DNA from: Halolamina litorea
GTDB lineage: Archaea; Halobacteriota; Halobacteria; Halobacteriales; Haloferacaceae
Direction of reading: 5' to 3'
Assembly (NCBI RefSeq): GCF_026616205.1
Contig: NZ_JANHGR010000001.1
Location: forward strand, 1,550,001-1,614,000
DNA length: 64,000 bases
This document shows positions 14,070-25,325 of this stretch, in pieces. The notes below the pieces were generated by a model. The model made no database searches, was not told where the DNA came from, and saw only the letters and a program-made list of their open reading frames with translations. The number at the start of each line of letters is the position of its first letter. Positions within the stretch are counted from its first letter, which is position 1. The position numbers and the translations under genes were made by a program.

Positions 14070-17000
14070 ATGGCTACCGACGAGGCTGACACCACCCCTG
14101 CCCTCGAAGGTGAGGTGCAGGAGCGCCCCGATCCCGCCGACGACGCCGTGGGCGGTCAGGAGGCCGTCGTCGGATCGTACACTTGGGACGACTTCCTCCG
14201 CGAACACGGCGAGACGACCGCCGCCCGGAAGCTCTACCAGCGCTTCGACGAGACGCCGGGCAGCGAGCGCTGGGGCGAAGCGGACCTGAGCCTCACTCGC
14301 GAGGACTGGGACCGAACCGACGTGGACCCCGCCGACTACCTCGGGTTCCCGCCCTGGGAGATCGAGGCCCGCATCGGCGCCGCCCACGGCGTCGCCGCGG
14401 ACATCACCGACTACTCCCCGCTGATCGGCTACGACGAGACGCCGGTCATCAAGGACATCTACGGCTGGGAGGACTACAAACGGCAGTACTTCTACACCGA
14501 CGAGGGCGAGGCGCCGACCGACCGCGAGGGCGAACCCGAGACGTTCGACGCCGAGGAGGCACTCGGACACCCGCCGGAGTCGATCGGCGGGACGATGGCC
14601 GACTGTAAGCGGGCCGGCGAGGAGCTACAGGAGCTCATCGACGAGCGCACCGTCGACGTGGACGAGGCCGTCGACGAGGACGCCTTCTTCTCGGACACGC
14701 AGGGTCGGACGACCGTCGCCAACCGCTACGACCTGGAGAAGACGGTCCCGATGGCGAAGAAGGCCCACTTCCGCGAGGAGGACCGCTACTGGGTGAACAA
14801 ACCCTACTCCTACGTCGTCATCTTCCACTCGACGAAGGAAAACGAGAAGAAGTACTACGTCGTCCAACCCCACCTGACGGAGATCGAGGACGGCCTCACG
14901 GACTACCTGACCGACAAGCTCCGGGCCTCGATCAAGTACGAGGACGAGGGGACCACCGCCGCCGACGAGGACCACCGCCGCTCGGTGATCGAAAACAGGA
15001 CCCGCGATCTGCTCGACCGGTACGACCTCTACGACGAGCCCGCCGACCCCGAAAACCGCGGTGGGCTCGGCAACACCATCGTGGACAAGTTCGGGCTGGA
15101 CCCGAACGGCGGCGTCTCCGGCCGCGTGGTCGACCTGCTGGGCTACGATGAGCCCATCGAGGGCATCCGACAACTGGAGGGGATCGAGGTCCGGCCCGAG
15201 CCGGCGCTCGTCGAGGAGGACGCCGACACGCTGAACGAGTACCAGGTCGAGAAGCTGCTGTACTACCTCGAACGGGACTTCATCGGCTACGAGCGCATCG
15301 ACGGCATCAAACACGACATCAACGTCGAGGACATCTCGTGTGACGGCTACAACGCCCCCGTCTTCGTCTACCACTCCGACTACGAGCAGATCATCACCAA
15401 CGTCTACCACGAGGAGGACGAACTCGACGACTTCGTCGTCAAACTGGCCCAACGGTCGGGCAAGGGCATCTCGAAGCGACGGCCGCAGGTCGACGCCACG
15501 CTCCCCGACGGCTCCCGTGCGCAACTGACCCTCGGGCGGGAGGTCTCGGACCACGGGACCAACTACACCATCCGGCAGTTCAAGGACGTGCCGTTCACAC
15601 CGGTGGACCTCATCAACTGGCAGACGTTCAGCCTCGACGAGATGGCGTTCCTGTGGCTCTGTATCGAGAACCACAAGTCCCTCATCTTCGCCGGCGGGAC
15701 GGCGTCGGGGAAGACGACGTCCCTGAACGCGGTTTCGCTGTTCATTCCCTCGAACACGAAGATCGTCTCCATCGAGGACACCCGCGAGGTCGAACTGCCC
15801 CAGCGCAACTGGATCGCCTCGGTCACGCGACCCTCCTTCAGCGACGACGACAAGGGCGACGTGGACGAGTTCGACCTGCTGGAGGCCGCGCTCCGCCAGC
15901 GCCCGGACTACATCGTGATGGGTGAGATCCGTGGTGAGGAGGGCCGGACGCTCTTCCAGGTCATGTCCACGGGCCACACCACCTACACGACGTTCCACGC
16001 CGACAACGTCGGCGAGGTGCTCAAGCGGTTCACCACCGAACCGATCAACGTCTCGAAGACGATGTTCACGGCGCTCGACCTCGTGTCGATCCAGACCTCG
16101 ACGCGGGTGCAGGGCCACAAGGTCCGCCGGAACAAGTCCCTCACCGAGATCAACCACTACGACGCCGAGAACGACGAGATCAACGTGCAGGACGTCTACC
16201 AGTGGCAGGCCGAGACCGACGAGTTCCTGAAGATGGGGGACTCGAACACCCTGGACGAGATCATGTTCGACCGCGGGTGGGACCGAGACACGCTCGATCT
16301 GGAGATCTTCAAGCGCCAGACCGTGCTCGCTTACCTGATCTACGAGGGGCTCAACACCTACACGCAGGTGGCGGCGACGTTCCAGGCGTTCATCAACGAC
16401 CCCGAGACCATCCTCTCGCTGATGGCCAACGACATGCTCGAGGCCTCACTGGAGGACCTCCGAGAGATGGAGTCGGTGCTGATCGATATCGACCCGGAGA
16501 AAGAGGAGATGGTCCCCCGTCCGGACCCGAACGACGAGATACTCGCGGAGGCGAAGGCGATCCTCGAACGGGCCGAGGAGGAACTGTTCGAGCAGTACCT
16601 CGGGGAGACGCCCGACGACGTGGCCGACGCCCTCGCCGACACCGAACCGCAGGGCAACGTCCAGGCGGCCCCCGACAGCGCCGGCGAACTCCCGCCGGCA
16701 GCCGAGGAACCCGACGACGACCCCTTCGGCGAGGCGGAGATCAGTCGCCCCGCGCTCGACGAGGAGGCCGAGGGCGACACCGACCCGACCACTCCCGAAC
16801 TCGAACCCGGCGATGACGAGGACGACGACGCCGGCTCGACGGCCGACGGTGCCGGAACCGAGCGGGCACTCCCCGAGCGCGACGACGGCGTCGACGACGG
16901 GAACGACGCCGGCGCCGACCCATCCGAGGAGGTGACGCCGGGCGACCACCCCTCCGCCGAGGACGGAACCGACGCCGGCGAGGAAACGGCCTCCAGCAGC

Positions 17001-17486
17001 GACGACGGCGACGGGACGGACGCGGAGTACGTCATCGGCGAACCACCTGCGGAACCCGACGACGACCCCTTCGGCGAGCCGCCGGACGGACTCTGGGAGC
17101 CGGATCCGGAGTTCGACTCGACGCCCGAACCTGACGAGTTCGACCCGTTCGACGGCTCGTCGGGCGACGAGGAGTACTTCATCGGCGAACCGGCCGACGA
17201 CGGAAGCGCCGACCGGAACGGCGGATCGGTGGCCGACGACCCGTTCGGGAACCCGCCGGGGCGCGACGACGAACCGCCGGAGCCGACTGACGGCTCCTTC
17301 GACGGCGGGTTCGACGGCGGTGGGGGAGACGAGGAGGAGGAGGAAGCGGTCGACGGCCCCGGAGAGGAGTTCGAGGACCCGTTCGACCCGGGTGAGGCCG
17401 ACGAGGAGGCCGAGGACGACGAAGTCGAAGTGGACTCGTGGGAACTCGACGACGGGGGCGACGGGTTCTGGGAGGGCGAGGAGTAG
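14070..17486 (+). CDS. pilB: Type IV pilus/secretion ATPase with long acidic tail
   Basis: An 1138-residue secretion-type ATPase powering assembly of pilus-like fibres. The core carries Walker A GGTASGKT at residues 542-549, an Asp box (SIEDTREVEL), Walker B with YIVMGEIRGEEG, and a His box (MSTGHTTYTTFHADN). From about residue 855 the protein becomes a disordered tail rich in Asp/Glu/Gly/Pro with five DPF motifs (at 884, 999, 1025, 1057, 1103) and two copies of EY[VF]IGEP (986, 1035). The core alone is the normal family length, so the tail is an addition of nearly 300 residues. The platform gene starts on the very next base after its stop. Confidence 0.93.
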   Translation: MATDEADTTPALEGEVQERPDPADDAVGGQEAVVGSYTWDDFLREHGETTAARKLYQRFDETPGSERWGEADLSLTREDWDRTDVDPADYLGFPPWEIEARIGAAHGVAADITDYSPLIGYDETPVIKDIYGWEDYKRQYFYTDEGEAPTDREGEPETFDAEEALGHPPESIGGTMADCKRAGEELQELIDERTVDVDEAVDEDAFFSDTQGRTTVANRYDLEKTVPMAKKAHFREEDRYWVNKPYSYVVIFHSTKENEKKYYVVQPHLTEIEDGLTDYLTDKLRASIKYEDEGTTAADEDHRRSVIENRTRDLLDRYDLYDEPADPENRGGLGNTIVDKFGLDPNGGVSGRVVDLLGYDEPIEGIRQLEGIEVRPEPALVEEDADTLNEYQVEKLLYYLERDFIGYERIDGIKHDINVEDISCDGYNAPVFVYHSDYEQIITNVYHEEDELDDFVVKLAQRSGKGISKRRPQVDATLPDGSRAQLTLGREVSDHGTNYTIRQFKDVPFTPVDLINWQTFSLDEMAFLWLCIENHKSLIFAGGTASGKTTSLNAVSLFIPSNTKIVSIEDTREVELPQRNWIASVTRPSFSDDDKGDVDEFDLLEAALRQRPDYIVMGEIRGEEGRTLFQVMSTGHTTYTTFHADNVGEVLKRFTTEPINVSKTMFTALDLVSIQTSTRVQGHKVRRNKSLTEINHYDAENDEINVQDVYQWQAETDEFLKMGDSNTLDEIMFDRGWDRDTLDLEIFKRQTVLAYLIYEGLNTYTQVAATFQAFINDPETILSLMANDMLEASLEDLREMESVLIDIDPEKEEMVPRPDPNDEILAEAKAILERAEEELFEQYLGETPDDVADALADTEPQGNVQAAPDSAGELPPAAEEPDDDPFGEAEISRPALDEEAEGDTDPTTPELEPGDDEDDDAGSTADGAGTERALPERDDGVDDGNDAGADPSEEVTPGDHPSAEDGTDAGEETASSSDDGDGTDAEYVIGEPPAEPDDDPFGEPPDGLWEPDPEFDSTPEPDEFDPFDGSSGDEEYFIGEPADDGSADRNGGSVADDPFGNPPGRDDEPPEPTDGSFDGGFDGGGGDEEEEEAVDGPGEEFEDPFDPGEADEEAEDDEVEVDSWELDDGGDGFWEGEE

Positions 17487-19520
17487 ATGAGTCTCGAACT
17501 CGGCGACGGCGCGGGCCGGGACTCCGGCGCGCTCGCCGACGCGTTCTACCCGCTGTACGACCTGCTGTTCGACTCCGACGGCGACATCGTCGCCGACGTG
17601 GAGGCCAAACTGGTCGAGGCGCGGATGAACCAGGCGGTCGAACTCTACCTCTCGAAGGCGCTGGCCGTCGGGACGCTGGTGGGCGGGGTGCTGTGGGCGG
17701 TCGGCTGCCTGCTGGGTTGGGCGGTGTTCGAACTCGGCTTCGTGGACCCCGACTCGCTCAGCCTCGGTATCCCCGTCGGCAGCGCCGAGACCGCGGCGCT
17801 ACTGCAGTCGGCGACGGTGCCGGTGGCGGTTCTGCTCGCCGGCCTCGTGTTCGGGAGCGTCGGGTTCGGGATGGGCTTCGGCACGCTCGCGGCGGTACCC
17901 TACTCCCGCGCGTCGGGGCGGAAACGCGAGATCAACATGCTGCTTTCGGACGCGGTGTCGTACATGTACGCCCTCTCCGTGGGCGGGCTGAACCAACTCG
18001 AGATCCTCGAGGCGATGGCCGACGCCGACGACACGTACGGCGAGGTCGCAAAGGAGTTCCAGAGCATCGTCAACGAGACGGAGTACTTCGGCACCGACTA
18101 CCGGAACGCGGTGCGCAAACAGTCGATGGAGACCCCCAGCGACGAGCTCTCCCAGTTCCTCACGGACATGCTGTCGATCATCAACTCCGGCGGGGACATG
18201 GAGCAGTTCCTCTACGACAAGAAGGAGAAACACATGCGGACCGCCAAACAGGAACAGGAGACCACCCTCGAAACGCTGGAGCTGTTCGGCGAGATGTACA
18301 TGACCCTCTCGTTGTTCCCGCTCCTGCTCATCATTATCCTCGTGGTGATGAGCATGATGGGCAGCGGCCGGGAACAGCTCATCTACGGCACCGTCTACGC
18401 GCTGATCCCGCTGACCGGTGTGGGCTTTCTGGTGATGATCTCGACGGTCAAACAGGACGAGATCGGCGACGGCTACCTCTCACCCGGCGACGGCAACGAA
18501 CGCCTCGAAGCCACCCAGCGGGAGGGGCTGATCCACCTCGGCCTGATCGAGGCGTTCAAAGGTCGGTTCAGCGTTTTCGACCGCATCCGCTCGCGCGAGG
18601 GGAACTACAAGACGAAGGAACTGCTCTCGGCGCCACAGCTCTTCTTCCGTGACAACCCCCTGTTCACGCTGGTGTTGAGCGTCCCGACGGCGGCGGCGGT
18701 GGTCGGGATGCTGTTCCTCGACGGCTCGGCGCCGACGGCGTGGGAGGGGATGATCGCGAACCCCATCTGGGGGACGGTCGTCTGGTTCTACATCCCGGCG
18801 TACATGACGCTGATCCCGCTCGCGGTGTTCTACGAGTGGAACGGCCTCACCCGGCGGTCGATCACCGGAAAGCTTTCCGAGAACCTCCGGAAGCTCTCGT
18901 CGGCCAACGACACCGGGCAGACGCTGCTCGAGTCGATCCAGACGGTCTCGGACACCTCGACGGGGAAACTCGCCGACGAGTTCGAGGTGATGTACGCGAA
19001 GGTCAACTACGGGATGAGCCTGCGTGAGGCGATGGTCGAGTTCAACAACAAGTACCACATCCCGCGGCTGGCCCGGACGATCAAACTGATCGCGGAGGCA
19101 CAGGAGGCCTCCAGCCAGATCACCGACGTGCTCTCGACGGCCGCACAGTCCTCGGAGAACCAGGACGACATCGAGCGCGAGCGCAAGTCCCGAACCCGGA
19201 TGCAGGTGGCGATCATCCTGATGACCTACCTGACGCTGCTTGCGGTCATGGCCATCCTCAAGACGCAGTTCCTCGACACGATGGCGGGGCTGGGCGGGCA
19301 GTCGGGTGGCGGCGAAGCGGCGGGTGCGGGGGGGCTGAGCTTCGGTGCCAGCATCGACACCCAACTGCTCTCGCTGCTGTTCTTCCACGCGGTGACGCTG
19401 CAGGCGGTGCTCTCGGGGTTCATCTCGGGCTACATCCGTGACGCCAAGATCATCTCCGGGGTGAAGTTCGTCATCATCCTCCAGACGCTCGCCCTCGCGG
19501 TGTGGGTGGTGGTCGTATGA
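17487..19520 (+). CDS. pilC: Type IV pilus membrane platform protein (T2SF/PilC-like)
   Basis: A 677-residue membrane protein, partner of the upstream ATPase. It contains two T2SF-type helical domains, each with a cytoplasmic helical bundle: the first near residues 140-260 (SVGGLNQLEILEAMADADD) and the second near 460-570 (SANDTGQTLLESIQTVS). Groups of hydrophobic segments lie at about 55-135, 270-325, 390-450 and 575-677. It would form the inner platform on which pilin-like subunits are assembled. Start ATG immediately follows the ATPase stop, and its TGA overlaps the next gene's ATG in ATGA, showing translational coupling. Confidence 0.92.
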   Translation: MSLELGDGAGRDSGALADAFYPLYDLLFDSDGDIVADVEAKLVEARMNQAVELYLSKALAVGTLVGGVLWAVGCLLGWAVFELGFVDPDSLSLGIPVGSAETAALLQSATVPVAVLLAGLVFGSVGFGMGFGTLAAVPYSRASGRKREINMLLSDAVSYMYALSVGGLNQLEILEAMADADDTYGEVAKEFQSIVNETEYFGTDYRNAVRKQSMETPSDELSQFLTDMLSIINSGGDMEQFLYDKKEKHMRTAKQEQETTLETLELFGEMYMTLSLFPLLLIIILVVMSMMGSGREQLIYGTVYALIPLTGVGFLVMISTVKQDEIGDGYLSPGDGNERLEATQREGLIHLGLIEAFKGRFSVFDRIRSREGNYKTKELLSAPQLFFRDNPLFTLVLSVPTAAAVVGMLFLDGSAPTAWEGMIANPIWGTVVWFYIPAYMTLIPLAVFYEWNGLTRRSITGKLSENLRKLSSANDTGQTLLESIQTVSDTSTGKLADEFEVMYAKVNYGMSLREAMVEFNNKYHIPRLARTIKLIAEAQEASSQITDVLSTAAQSSENQDDIERERKSRTRMQVAIILMTYLTLLAVMAILKTQFLDTMAGLGGQSGGGEAAGAGGLSFGASIDTQLLSLLFFHAVTLQAVLSGFISGYIRDAKIISGVKFVIILQTLALAVWVVVV

Positions 19521-20023
19521 GGACCCCACGGGACGGCGCCGCCGACCGGGGCCAGACCGTCCTCGACTACGCCATCGGGATGGGGGTCTTCTTCATCGCC
19601 CTGGCGTTCGTGATCGCCACCATCCCGGGGATGTTCGCCCCCTTCGTCGGCACGGGGGACACGCTGGTCGCGGACCGGGTGGCGACCACCGCGGCGACCG
19701 AACGGCTCGGTTCGCCGGACGACCCCTACGTGCTCGACCGGGACTGCACCGTCGCGTTCTTCGAGCAGGTGAACGGCGGCGACGCCGCCCCCTCGAACTG
19801 TCGGTTCGACACGACGGCGACGACGCTCAACGGCGTGTTCGGTCTCGACGACACCGAGTCGATCCAACTCCGTATCGAGGACGCCGACCGGCAGCCGGCG
19901 ACCCTCGACGGCGTCACGCTCGAAGCCGGGGAGGACCCGCCGAGCAGCACCTCCGTCACCACCGCCCGCCGGACGGTCGGGATCGACGGCGCGACCTACT
20001 GGCTGGAGGTGCGTGCGTGGTGA
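19517..20023 (+). CDS. Pilin-like protein 1 (DUF7287-like)
   Basis: A 168-residue protein with a type IV pilin-like N-terminus: a short polar leader, the cleavage-type sequence DRGQ at residues 10-13, then a hydrophobic helix (about 17-39, AIGMGVFFIALAFVIATIPG). The remainder is a soluble extracytoplasmic domain with two Cys (CTV near 76 and NC near 93) that could form a disulfide. The assignment to a DUF7287-type haloarchaeal family is from memory and tentative. The ATG at 19517 overlaps the preceding stop in ATGA. Confidence 0.8.
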   Translation: MRTPRDGAADRGQTVLDYAIGMGVFFIALAFVIATIPGMFAPFVGTGDTLVADRVATTAATERLGSPDDPYVLDRDCTVAFFEQVNGGDAAPSNCRFDTTATTLNGVFGLDDTESIQLRIEDADRQPATLDGVTLEAGEDPPSSTSVTTARRTVGIDGATYWLEVRAW

Positions 20024-20613
20024 GCGACGACGACCGCGGACAGGCCCACACGCTCGAAGCGATCACGGCGGGGATGTTGCTGCTCGCGAGCGTGCTGTTC
20101 GCGCTGCAGGTCACCGCGGTCACGCCGCTCACGGGGAGTACGTCGAGTCAGCACATCGAGAACCAACAGGCTGCGCTCGCGGAGGGGGTGTTGGCGGCCG
20201 AAGCCGACAACGGCACCGTCGTCCCCTCGTTGCTCTACTGGAACGAGAGCGCGGGGAGTTTCCACGGCGCGCCGGTCGCGGGCTACCACAGCGGCGGCCC
20301 GCCGACGGCGTTCGGCCGGGTACTCGACGCGACGCTCCGGGAGCGCAACATCGCCTTCGACGTGAACCTGTTCTACGTCCGTGGCGGCGGCGCCGACCGG
20401 GAGCGCCACTCGATGGTCGACCTCGGGTCGCCATCCGATCACGCCTCGGCGGCCACCCGATCGTTCACGCTCTACGACGACGACCGGATCCGGTACGCGA
20501 ACGGCTCGGCGGGCCCGACGCTGGCTAACGCGACCTACTTCGCGCCCGACGCGGCACCCGACAGCCGGGTGTACAACGTGATCGAAGTGGAGGTGGTCGT
20601 ATGGCGGATGTAG
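20020..20613 (+). CDS. Pilin-like protein 2 (DUF7288-like)
   Basis: A 197-residue protein opening with DDDRGQ, a prepilin-peptidase-type site, followed by a hydrophobic helix (AITAGMLLLASVLFAL). The remainder contains several N-x-S/T sequons (NGT, NES, NGS, NAT), fitting an exported, possibly glycosylated domain. A GTG at 20020 forms GTGA with the previous stop and lies eight bases after the GGAGGTG ribosome-binding-like sequence at 20005-20011; GTG at 20017 is an alternative. It overlaps the next gene by 13 bases. DUF7288 membership is tentative. Confidence 0.78.
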   Translation: MSDDDRGQAHTLEAITAGMLLLASVLFALQVTAVTPLTGSTSSQHIENQQAALAEGVLAAEADNGTVVPSLLYWNESAGSFHGAPVAGYHSGGPPTAFGRVLDATLRERNIAFDVNLFYVRGGGADRERHSMVDLGSPSDHASAATRSFTLYDDDRIRYANGSAGPTLANATYFAPDAAPDSRVYNVIEVEVVVWRM

Positions 20614-21584
20614 ACGACCGGGGCCAGCTGTTGATCGTCGGCGCGTTCACGTTCGCCGTGATGCTCGTGGCGCTGGCGGTGTTGCTCAACACCGCGATCT
20701 ACACCGGGAACGTCGCGACCCGCGACGCCGGCCCGGGGACCGGCGAGGCCATCGAGTACGAGGGCGAGGCGGCGACGATGGCACGCGACAGCCTCGGCGC
20801 GGTGAACGAGCGCGAGGGGGCAACTTACGCTGACCTCCGTGGGAACTTCACGCGCGCCGTCGACGATTGGGTGGCCATCACCCGCGTTCACGGGGCCACG
20901 TCGCTGGCCGGCGGCGGGCTCGAGCCGGTCGGTGACCCGACCCGGGGGACCCTGATCGAACAGCCGAACGAGCGCAACTTCACGAGCGCCGCGACCGCGC
21001 GGAACTGGACGGTCGCCAACGACAGCACGGTCCGGGCGTTCCGGCTGAACGTTACACAGGACTCCCTCGAGACCCCCCCGGACGGTGACCTGGTCGACAT
21101 CATCTTCGGCGAAGACGAACGGCCGAACTACTTCCACGTCCGGATCGACGACGGCGCCGAAACGTGGCGGATCTACTTCGCCCGGGACGCCAACGACAGC
21201 GTGAGCGAGGACGTGACCCTCTCGGTCGACCACGACGGCAGCAGCGACGCCTGCTCGGCGCCGGCCGACAACGGCACCGTCGCCGTCGACATCACCGGCG
21301 CCGAACTCGGGGGGAGTCACTGTGAGCCACTCGAGAACATGACGACGGCTCTCGACGACTCCTACACCGTCTCGTACCGCAACGGCGTGAACGGGACCGG
21401 TACCTACTCGCTGGTCTCGAACCGGGCGATCGGCCGCCTCGACACCGGCGCCGACACGACCGGGGCGAACGACCCGACCGCCGAGCGCGCACTCTACGAC
21501 GCGACGTTCCGGGTGACGTGGCGCACCGCGGACGTGTACTACCAGTCGGAACTCCGGATCGCCCCGGGGGAGGCAGATGACTGA
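20601..21584 (+). CDS. Pilin-like protein 3 (DUF7261-like)
   Basis: A 327-residue protein with DDRGQ at residues 5-9, then a hydrophobic segment (LLIVGAFTFAVMLVALAVLL), the pattern of a class III signal. The long exterior domain has many N-x-S/T sequons and an isolated Cys pair (DACSAP and SHCEPL) likely to be a disulfide. Function is inferred only from its place in the pilus operon: a minor pilin or a fibre-priming subunit. Its start lies inside the previous gene and its last eight bases overlap the next gene. DUF7261 membership is a tentative recollection. Confidence 0.8.
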   Translation: MADVDDRGQLLIVGAFTFAVMLVALAVLLNTAIYTGNVATRDAGPGTGEAIEYEGEAATMARDSLGAVNEREGATYADLRGNFTRAVDDWVAITRVHGATSLAGGGLEPVGDPTRGTLIEQPNERNFTSAATARNWTVANDSTVRAFRLNVTQDSLETPPDGDLVDIIFGEDERPNYFHVRIDDGAETWRIYFARDANDSVSEDVTLSVDHDGSSDACSAPADNGTVAVDITGAELGGSHCEPLENMTTALDDSYTVSYRNGVNGTGTYSLVSNRAIGRLDTGADTTGANDPTAERALYDATFRVTWRTADVYYQSELRIAPGEADD

Positions 21585-22983
21585 CGGCCCGCCGGCGCCC
21601 GAACCTGGGGCGTCGCTCCTCGACGACGACCGGGGCGTCTCGGTCACGCTCGGCTACGTGCTGACCCTCTCGATCACCGCCGTCATCGTCGCGGGGCTGC
21701 TCGCCGCCGGCGGCTCGTTGATCGAGGACCAGCGTCGGATGGTGGCGGCGGACGAACTCTCAGTCACGGGCCAGCAACTCGCCGTCGGCTTCGGCGAGGC
21801 CGACCGCCTCGCCGGCACGACCGACGACGGCACCGTCCGAGTGAACGTCGACCTGCCGAGCGGCGACAACAGCGACTACACGCTCCGGGTGGTGAACCAC
21901 CCGACTGCGGCCGGCCAGCCCGCGCGGGCGACGGTCGTTGCCAGCGCCGACGGCCTCGAAGTGTCCCGCAACGTCAGCTTCCGGACCGCGGCCCCGGTCG
22001 CCAACCGAACGGTGCCGGCCGGCCCGGTCACGATCACGTACACCGACAGCGACGGCGACGGCGAGCGGGAACTCGTCCTCGCCGAACGACGCCGTATCGC
22101 GCCGGATCCCCTCGATCCCGCCGGCTTCGGTCACGAGGAGGTCGTCTACGTGGACGCGGACACGGGCGAACTCAGGAGCGTCGCCCCCGACAACACGATC
22201 ACGAACTACGGCGTCGGGGCCAGCGCTATCGGGCCCAAACAGGTGGATCTGGACGGCGACGGCCTGCGGGAGGTCCCGTTCGTGAACAGCGCGAACGAAC
22301 TCCGAGTCGTCGACGCCGACGGGGAAACCCGGACGCTGGCGACCGACGCCGCGACCGCGTCGCTCCAGAACGGCTACACGTCGATGCTCGCGGTCGGGGA
22401 GTGGAACGGGTCGACCAGCGTCTTCTACATGAACACCTCCGACCTCGGCGGTGACGACGAGGCGACGATCTATCGTGTGGGCATCGACGGGGCCCCACGG
22501 AAGGTCACCGTCGCGGGGAACGGCGTCGAGGCAAACGCCATCGCCGGCATCGGCGACGTCAACGACGACGGGGACGCTGACCTCGTCTTCGTCGGCGGCT
22601 CACAGCGGGTCCGCTACATCGACGACGACACCATCACCGACACCAGCCAGGGCGTCGACGCCGACGTGGCGATGGGGGTGGGCGCACCGCGGACGTTCGC
22701 GAGCGGCGAGGTCGACCGCGTGCCGTTCGTCTCGAGCAACAACGTCCGACTGCTCAGCTACGTCGGCGGGAGCAGCGACGTTGAGGACCTCACCACCGGC
22801 GGCGTCGCCGCGCCGACCTACGTCTCCGGGATCGACTGGGTCGGCGACGGCGCGTTAGAGGTCGTCTACGTCGACAGCGGCTCCGGAACGCTCCAGTACG
22901 TGACACAGAGTGACACCGGCGGGACCGTCTACGGTCCCGACGGGAACGTCATCGAGGTCGACGAGAGCGTGGGGGTCGCATGA
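21577..22983 (+). CDS. Pilin-like protein 4 with FG-GAP-like repeats
   Basis: A 468-residue protein. The pilin-like leader ends in DDRG at residues 17-20, followed by a hydrophobic helix (about 23-46). After an alpha/beta pilin-like domain to about residue 155, the sequence turns into FG-GAP/VCBS-type calcium-loop repeats: DSDGDG at 157-162, DLDGDG at 224-229, DVNDDGDAD at 327-335, and a weaker one near 425. Such repeats form integrin-like beta propellers used in adhesion. The architecture suggests a tip adhesin or lectin-like subunit. The start overlaps the previous gene by eight bases. The pilin part resembles DUF7266-type proteins (tentative). Confidence 0.8.
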   Translation: MTDGPPAPEPGASLLDDDRGVSVTLGYVLTLSITAVIVAGLLAAGGSLIEDQRRMVAADELSVTGQQLAVGFGEADRLAGTTDDGTVRVNVDLPSGDNSDYTLRVVNHPTAAGQPARATVVASADGLEVSRNVSFRTAAPVANRTVPAGPVTITYTDSDGDGERELVLAERRRIAPDPLDPAGFGHEEVVYVDADTGELRSVAPDNTITNYGVGASAIGPKQVDLDGDGLREVPFVNSANELRVVDADGETRTLATDAATASLQNGYTSMLAVGEWNGSTSVFYMNTSDLGGDDEATIYRVGIDGAPRKVTVAGNGVEANAIAGIGDVNDDGDADLVFVGGSQRVRYIDDDTITDTSQGVDADVAMGVGAPRTFASGEVDRVPFVSSNNVRLLSYVGGSSDVEDLTTGGVAAPTYVSGIDWVGDGALEVVYVDSGSGTLQYVTQSDTGGTVYGPDGNVIEVDESVGVA

Positions 22984-24539: not shown

Positions 24540-24767
24540 CCGGCTCCTCAGGCCCGCGAAAGAGCTTTTGGCGTCAGAACACGACGAACGAGTGCCGGAA
24601 TGTGCCGAGCCGGTGCCATCGACGGCGCCGGCACCACTGTGGCCAGTTCGCGGGCGGCCCGTTTCGGGCCGTCCGGGGAGCTGGCGGACCCAGCGCGTTC
24701 ACCCGCCGACGCCCACGGGCCGGCAAACGTTTTTCCCCGCGCAGTTCTGACCTCCGGACAAGCACAC
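24540..24767. other. Intergenic spacer after pilus operon
   Basis: No gene is supported. A forward frame opens at 24600 but is an in-phase extension of the regulator gene with Ala/Arg-rich residues unlike the acidic protein. A short T-run at 24730-24735 lies 33-38 bases before the regulator's ATG and could be part of its promoter or a terminator for the operon. Confidence 0.45.
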
Positions 24768-25325
24768 ATGTCCGAAAACCCCCAACCCGACGAGGAAACC
24801 GACGAGCCGAGCTCCGCACGGGAGCGGCTCGAAGAGGGCGCAGACAAGGCGATCGGCGAGTTCGACCAGGGCGTCGTCGACCTGCTCGCGTGGCTGCTCG
24901 ATACCGAGACGCGCGCACGGATCTACGTCTACCTCCGCCAGCACCCCGACAGCACCAGCGAGGAGGTGGCGGAGGGCACCGGCCTCTACCCGAGCACCGT
25001 CCGCGAAGCGCTCGCCGAACTGCACGATGAGGAGACGGTCTCGCGCGGCAAACGCGAGAGCGAGGGCGCCGGCAACAACCCCTACGAGTACGAGGCCATC
25101 TCCCCGAGCGAACTCGTCTCGGGGGCCGTCGGGCAGGTCCAGAACCAACTCAACGCGGTGTTCAACCTCGACGAGCGGCTCAGCCGCGGCGACGAGGGCA
25201 ACGACGAGGGCCCAGTGACGATTTCCGTGACGGGCGCCGGGGCGACCGAGACGGACGGCGATGCGGACGACGAGGTGGACGACGACGGCGACACCCCCAC
25301 GGCGGCCGACGCCGAGGACGAATGA
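24768..25325 (+). CDS. Winged-helix transcription regulator (TrmB/ArsR-like)
   Basis: A 185-residue protein. Acidic first 30 residues precede a winged helix at about 40-110: LLDTETRARIYVYLRQHPDS, then the recognition part GLYPSTVREALAELHDE and a wing with KRESEGAGNNPYEY. An amphipathic helix (LVSGAVGQVQNQLNAVFNL) may dimerise it. The tail is nearly all acidic. It lies between the pilus operon and coaD and could regulate either; the sequence does not decide. ATG 24768 is chosen because the upstream extension loses the acidic character. Confidence 0.85.
   Translation: MSENPQPDEETDEPSSARERLEEGADKAIGEFDQGVVDLLAWLLDTETRARIYVYLRQHPDSTSEEVAEGTGLYPSTVREALAELHDEETVSRGKRESEGAGNNPYEYEAISPSELVSGAVGQVQNQLNAVFNLDERLSRGDEGNDEGPVTISVTGAGATETDGDADDEVDDDGDTPTAADAEDE

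Follow-up and report, generated by a model that had tools for sequence, protein, structure and literature searches.

Some bacterial type IV pilins are modular, i.e. a functional module is grafted onto a pilin (PMC8179133). Examples are found in S. sanguinis, where the modular pilin PilB carries a vWA module and the modular pilin PilC a lectin module (PMC8179133, PMC9934059). A C-terminal propeller, which belongs to IPR008707, is present in the PilY1/PilC tip adhesins (PMC8179133). Halobacterial PilB4 loci possess their own set of pilins and are characterized by the layout of their ATPase, which carries extra N- and C-terminal domains (PMC4858521). Here, we describe a 468-amino acid minor pilin of Halolamina litorea, encoded in a window of 64,000 nucleotides (the whole stretch of DNA that was analysed), which is probably an archaeal modular pilin that presents a mobile propeller at the outermost position of the filament, where the propeller would bind a ligand. 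The structure and the history of the propeller are supported by computation; its tip position, its calcium and its ligand are inferred.

The pilus operon and the pilin module

The original prediction had placed the open reading frame 21577-22983, whose coordinates were reproduced exactly, in a type IV pilus operon, and the surrounding genes bear this out. All of them are encoded on the forward strand, in the following order:

14070..17486, forward strand: type IV pilus secretion ATPase, 1138 amino acids (T2SSE, E 1e-31, residues 467-680)
17487..19520, forward strand: TadC/PilC-type membrane platform (T2SSF, E 6e-30)
19502..20023, forward strand: minor pilin-like protein DUF7287 (E 1e-44), class III-type leader DRG followed by Q (by sequence)
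20017..20613, forward strand: minor pilin-like protein DUF7288 (E 4e-64), class III-type leader DRG followed by Q (by sequence)
20601..21584, forward strand: minor pilin-like protein DUF7261 (E 2.6e-6), leader DRG followed by Q, without propeller in the window
21577..22983, forward strand: target modular minor pilin, DUF7266 with a predicted C-terminal six-bladed propeller, 468 amino acids
23031..24539, forward strand: DUF7289 and DUF7308 pilin-like protein (E 7e-20 and 6e-48), leader RRG followed by Q
24600..25325, forward strand: winged-helix regulator (TrmB/HTH matches; synteny)

All five proteins encoded between the platform and the regulator possess a class III-type leader and a hydrophobic helix and are thus pilin-like. 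The end of the DUF7261 gene and the start of the target gene overlap by 8 bases, and the winged-helix regulator is kept beside the operon in all seven Halolamina genomes. The ATPase extends for around 460 residues on each side of its core, and with this 1138-amino acid protein beside five leader-bearing neighbours, the operon resembles the haloarchaeal PilB4-type locus (PMC4858521). However, the main text of the PilB4 survey is silent on propellers and FG-GAP repeats (PMC4858521), and the DUF7266 subunit, which is plain in most genomes, bears a propeller in the window. A gene of the prepilin peptidase family (PF01478, E 8e-12) is found in the same genome. When compared with Halolamina salifodinae by tblastn, the DUF7261 neighbour (20601-21584) shares only 49% identity with its counterpart, whereas the surrounding genes reach 72-89% (83% for DUF7288), as if the surface part of the DUF7261 protein were under different pressure.

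The target protein itself can be divided as follows:

21577..21636, forward strand: class III-type leader of 20 residues with DDRG at its end (by sequence)
21637..22086, forward strand: pilin module, residues 21-170, with N-terminal hydrophobic helix, DUF7266 domain and acidic loop 157-165
22087..22131, forward strand: pilin-propeller linker of around 15 residues (171-185), boundary partly from AF2 confidence
22132..22980, forward strand: predicted propeller, residues 186-468, six repeats (family alignment, AF2, VIA)
22246..22281, forward strand: calcium-type loop of repeat 2, DLDGDGLREVPF, residues 224-235 (alignment and sequence)
22555..22587, forward strand: calcium-type loop of repeat 4, DVNDDGDADLV, residues 327-337 (alignment and sequence)

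The leader reads D17-D-R-G20 and is followed by V21 and a single hydrophobic stretch (around residues 20-49), as had been proposed, and the protein lacks cysteine. Features of a membrane enzyme, which the original prediction had named as the opposing outcome, were looked for and none was seen; there is one transmembrane helix only. The DUF7266 domain (PF23928) matches residues 17-166 with 72.9 bits (Pfam cut-off 27.6, E 3e-20), and the pilin module is 60-63% identical to short relatives in the genus. Modelled alone, it yields a low-confidence structure (pLDDT 41) with a helix at residues 21-79 followed by seven strands, and in the full-length AF2 model its pLDDT stays below 50. Searches of the literature returned no paper on DUF7266, none that links FG-GAP repeats to haloarchaeal pilins and nothing relevant on FG-GAP repeats and archaeal type IV pili; preprints and most subscription journals lie outside the coverage of these searches, which therefore are weak evidence of novelty. 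The linker contains Pro, and its sequence RIAPD is reminiscent of the ends of DUF7261 proteins (VxVAPD/E); such a likeness would be expected if DUF7266 had received the end of a DUF7261-propeller protein, but it extends over few residues, was noted post hoc and is given no weight as evidence.

Fold and carriers of the propeller

A family alignment divides residues 186-468 into six repeats, the last of which closes at the C-terminal GVA. AF2, run with six sequences, models this region as a propeller with a pLDDT of around 80; its six blades lie within the four to seven that had been anticipated. In a Foldseek search with the full model, nearly all top matches are propellers, with poor TM-scores that probably result from the unmodelled residues 1-185. 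VIA, which gives a clearer picture, aligns residues 182-468 to six-bladed propellers with Z up to 19.8 and 233-253 residues aligned at 2.9-3.7 Å; TolB (Z 19.8 over residues 186-468) is followed closely by fungal fucose lectins, LRP6 and nidogen, and LRP4 is also among these six-bladed matches. The nearest solved chain by sequence profile is CRTAC1 (9etn, E 6.7e-7). FG-GAP_3 matches residues 224-278 slightly short of the Pfam cut-off (23.5 versus 26.9 bits, E 9e-5), and eight of ten members of the propeller family match it at E up to 0.01, some of them over the cut-off. Residues 186-468 are thus predicted to adopt a closed six-bladed propeller fold; the original prediction, which a structure without blades would have refuted, was right about the fold in outline.

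The original prediction had listed FG-GAP loops at residues 157, 224 and 327 and a weaker one near 425. The three DxDxDG loops are indeed present, while shuffled sequences are expected to contain 0.03 and reached three in none of 5,000 shuffles, and the weaker loop corresponds to a degenerate WVGDG at residues 420-425. The loops at 224 and 327 lie in the propeller, but loop 157 lies outside the propeller, in the hairpin with which the DUF7266 pilin domain ends, and is also retained in the short, propeller-free Halolamina proteins (DDDGDGDPELV, DGDEDGDRELV), which end at around residue 177-187. A full acidic loop is found in repeats 2 and 4 of the target only, the remaining repeats being degenerate, whereas other members of the propeller family possess it in further repeats. 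Judged from these motifs, the DxDxDG loops of blades 2 and 4 may hold Ca2+, which would stabilize the two blades.

The propeller had been thought specific to this operon. This part of the original prediction did not hold, since the same propeller is found on several other carrier families. It is patchily distributed, with profile matches in 47 of 392 haloarchaeal genomes of the order and in 25 of 95 genera, multiple copies being frequent, and among 295 genomes drawn from the phylum every match falls in the same order. In a census of around 70 copies, in which a sample was scanned with Pfam and the remaining class labels were assigned by reading N-termini, the carriers comprised DUF7261 pilins (L065, L066, L072, L090, L099-L101, L106, L142, L170), some of whose genes lie beside PilB, PilC, DUF7287, DUF7288 and plain DUF7266; PF07790 pilins (L077-L079, L096, L146, L150, L154); Arch_flagellin/ArlG-like proteins (L067, L068, L080, L168); large leader-bearing proteins, often with Ig-like parts (L070, L088, L093-L095, L105, L153, L155 and others); and Sec-type secreted proteins, in which the propeller near the N-terminus is followed by other parts (L069, L071, L073-L075 and others). 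The N-terminal or upstream part of some propeller proteins (L158:6186-7283, L167:6092-7540, L076:7384-8484) appears to resemble Tat-exported TasA/SipW-type filament proteins. The propeller is located at the C-terminus of filament-type carriers, which is the outward end, and near the N-terminus of secreted carriers, away from an apparent C-terminal membrane anchor; in both cases it should therefore be outermost.

The ArlG-like proteins with a C-terminal propeller are around 420 amino acids long (L067:7344-8612, L068:7159-8424, L080:7922-9196, L168:6728-8176). In L080, genes that appear to be canonical arlF, arlG and arlH-like genes lie around 5 kb from the gene of the propeller protein, which hence looks like an additional, head-bearing subunit of the ArlG type. 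The ArlG filament is capped by ArlF, which connects it to the S-layer (PMC8667602), and the ArlG-like carriers keep alive the idea that the propeller faces inward and binds the S-layer of the same cell or the glycans on it, the target being a stator-like or pilus-base subunit instead of an adhesin. However, the L080 genome encodes a separate, apparently canonical ArlG, which marks the propeller version as a paralogue, and in most cases the carrier is a pilin or a secreted protein whose propeller occupies the end expected to be outermost. We therefore regard an inward-facing anchor as unlikely.

History of the fusion

The DUF7266-propeller fusion is present in two of the seven Halolamina genomes, that of the window and that of H. 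salifodinae, whose orthologue shares 73% identity across all 468 residues, has the same length and layout with a similar linker and is part of the same operon. The other five genomes contain a syntenic operon with a plain, propeller-free DUF7266 protein; within one genus, an otherwise conserved pilus operon thus encodes the head in some species and lacks it in others. Beyond these two, the matches listed for 293 genomes of the order include no DUF7266 protein fused to a propeller, and rare ones may be missing from that listing. Homologues that share the pilin part, which the original prediction had proposed to search for, do exist, but the propeller repeats are absent from most DUF7266 proteins; those are ordinary short pilins, and the picture they give is that of a lineage-specific graft and not of an enzyme. 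The dN/dS between the window and H. salifodinae is 0.24 for the propeller side, which is under purifying selection, and 0.29 for the pilin part. In one Halolamina genome of 79% completeness (L083, G293), PilB, PilC, DUF7266 and DUF7289 match in broken, frame-shifted pieces, most likely due to sequencing errors.

It is conceivable that the target is never assembled and acts as a helix-anchored surface display protein in the membrane, for which the pilus operon is merely an address; membrane pilins have been suggested to be behind the residual adhesion of H. volcanii in the absence of PilB3-C3 (PMC6491452). This appears quite improbable, however, as Halolamina proteins share 60-73% identity in the pilin module, which is under constraint (dN/dS 0.29), and the short version stands alone as a member of the operon, so that the module has a job that is independent of the propeller. 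A chance joining of two unrelated genes, through misassembly or the loss of a stop codon, is hardly credible and was rejected: although five of the seven Halolamina genomes lack the fusion, the separately deposited H. salifodinae genome encodes it at the same length, with a similar linker and under purifying selection.

How a modular pilin with a mobile propeller could have arisen is indicated by trees of the propeller, which place a DUF7261-propeller of Halospeciosus flavus as sister to the pair of DUF7266 copies (95/88; SH-aLRT 94). The nearest propeller outside the genus is carried by a pilin of the family encoded immediately upstream of the target in the window. Further DUF7261 and ArlG-like carriers surround the DUF7266 copies, and at least nine changes of carrier label are required across the tree. 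Furthermore, the adjacent pair is reversed: L072 and L106 combine a DUF7261-propeller with a short DUF7266, whereas the window combines a short DUF7261 with a DUF7266-propeller. Tree placement and reversed pairing fit a cassette that was passed between subunits or lineages. The donor was most likely a DUF7261-propeller protein, from which the module reached DUF7266 in the Halolamina lineage, a direction that rests on one moderately supported branch. A tree of PilB and PilC of the genus does not discriminate between a single gain by two sisters and an early gain followed by loss. The DUF7261 pilins of L072 (5857-8484) and L106 (6243-8894) also contain PKD-type inserts, tested with Pfam for L072, and their genes, each part of a PilB/PilC operon, are directly followed by the one for the short DUF7266 protein.

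Proposed mechanism and comparison with modular pilins

In the proposed mechanism, a prepilin peptidase would cleave the target after G20, and the ATPase and platform of the operon would polymerize its pilin module like that of any minor pilin. The propeller, attached via the short Pro-containing linker, would thereby be carried outward, most likely to a position at or near the filament tip, since a C-terminal module of 280 residues fits poorly inside the fibre. Once displayed, it may bind a ligand, which could be a glycan, a glycoprotein of the surface layer or of another kind, or a surface of mineral or organic nature. A role as an adhesin or sugar-binding subunit is plausible by analogy with the bacterial modular pilins and with the six-bladed fucose lectins among the fold matches. 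On the scale of the haloarchaea, the propeller would constitute a mobile cassette whose fusions to the various filament subunits arose on separate occasions. A possible, though far from assured, extension is that a dedicated, horizontally moving six-bladed cassette provides several type IV pilin families and archaellum-stator-like ArlG paralogues with an interchangeable outer head, as the archaeal counterpart of the bacterial modular pilins, and that all these heads recognize the same kind of ligand at the surface of haloarchaeal cells, e.g. S-layer glycans. For most archaeal minor pilins, no individual function is known; a separable head gives a concrete handle on it, and the repeated fusion of the propeller to unrelated filament subunits suggests that archaea, like bacteria, exchange filament heads between machines.

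Propellers of the FG-GAP/VCBS type, such as those of CRTAC1 and integrin alpha, share the DxDxDG loops with the target, which additionally matches CRTAC1 by profile. The integrin alpha propeller consists of seven blades, whereas the target has six repeats, aligns over its full length to six-bladed folds and is attached to a pilin. As for PilY1/PilC, the propeller is expected at or near the tip of a type IV pilus; however, PilY1/PilC, rather than being a pilin itself, sits on a complex of minor pilins, and its propeller family gives no Pfam match on the target at E up to 1. Comparable in layout are PilB and PilC of S. sanguinis, which likewise combine a small N-terminal pilin module, a short linker and a bulky C-terminal functional module that is presented by the filament, and the C-terminal domain of the target, separate from its pilin module, also occurs in secreted non-pilin proteins. 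In contrast to the bacterial modular pilins, the target is archaeal and built on DUF7266 instead of an IPR012902-type pilin module, and its functional module is a predicted six-bladed FG-GAP-type propeller that is found on several different carriers. Taken together, the target appears to be an archaeal variant of the known modular-pilin kind, equipped with a mobile six-bladed propeller.
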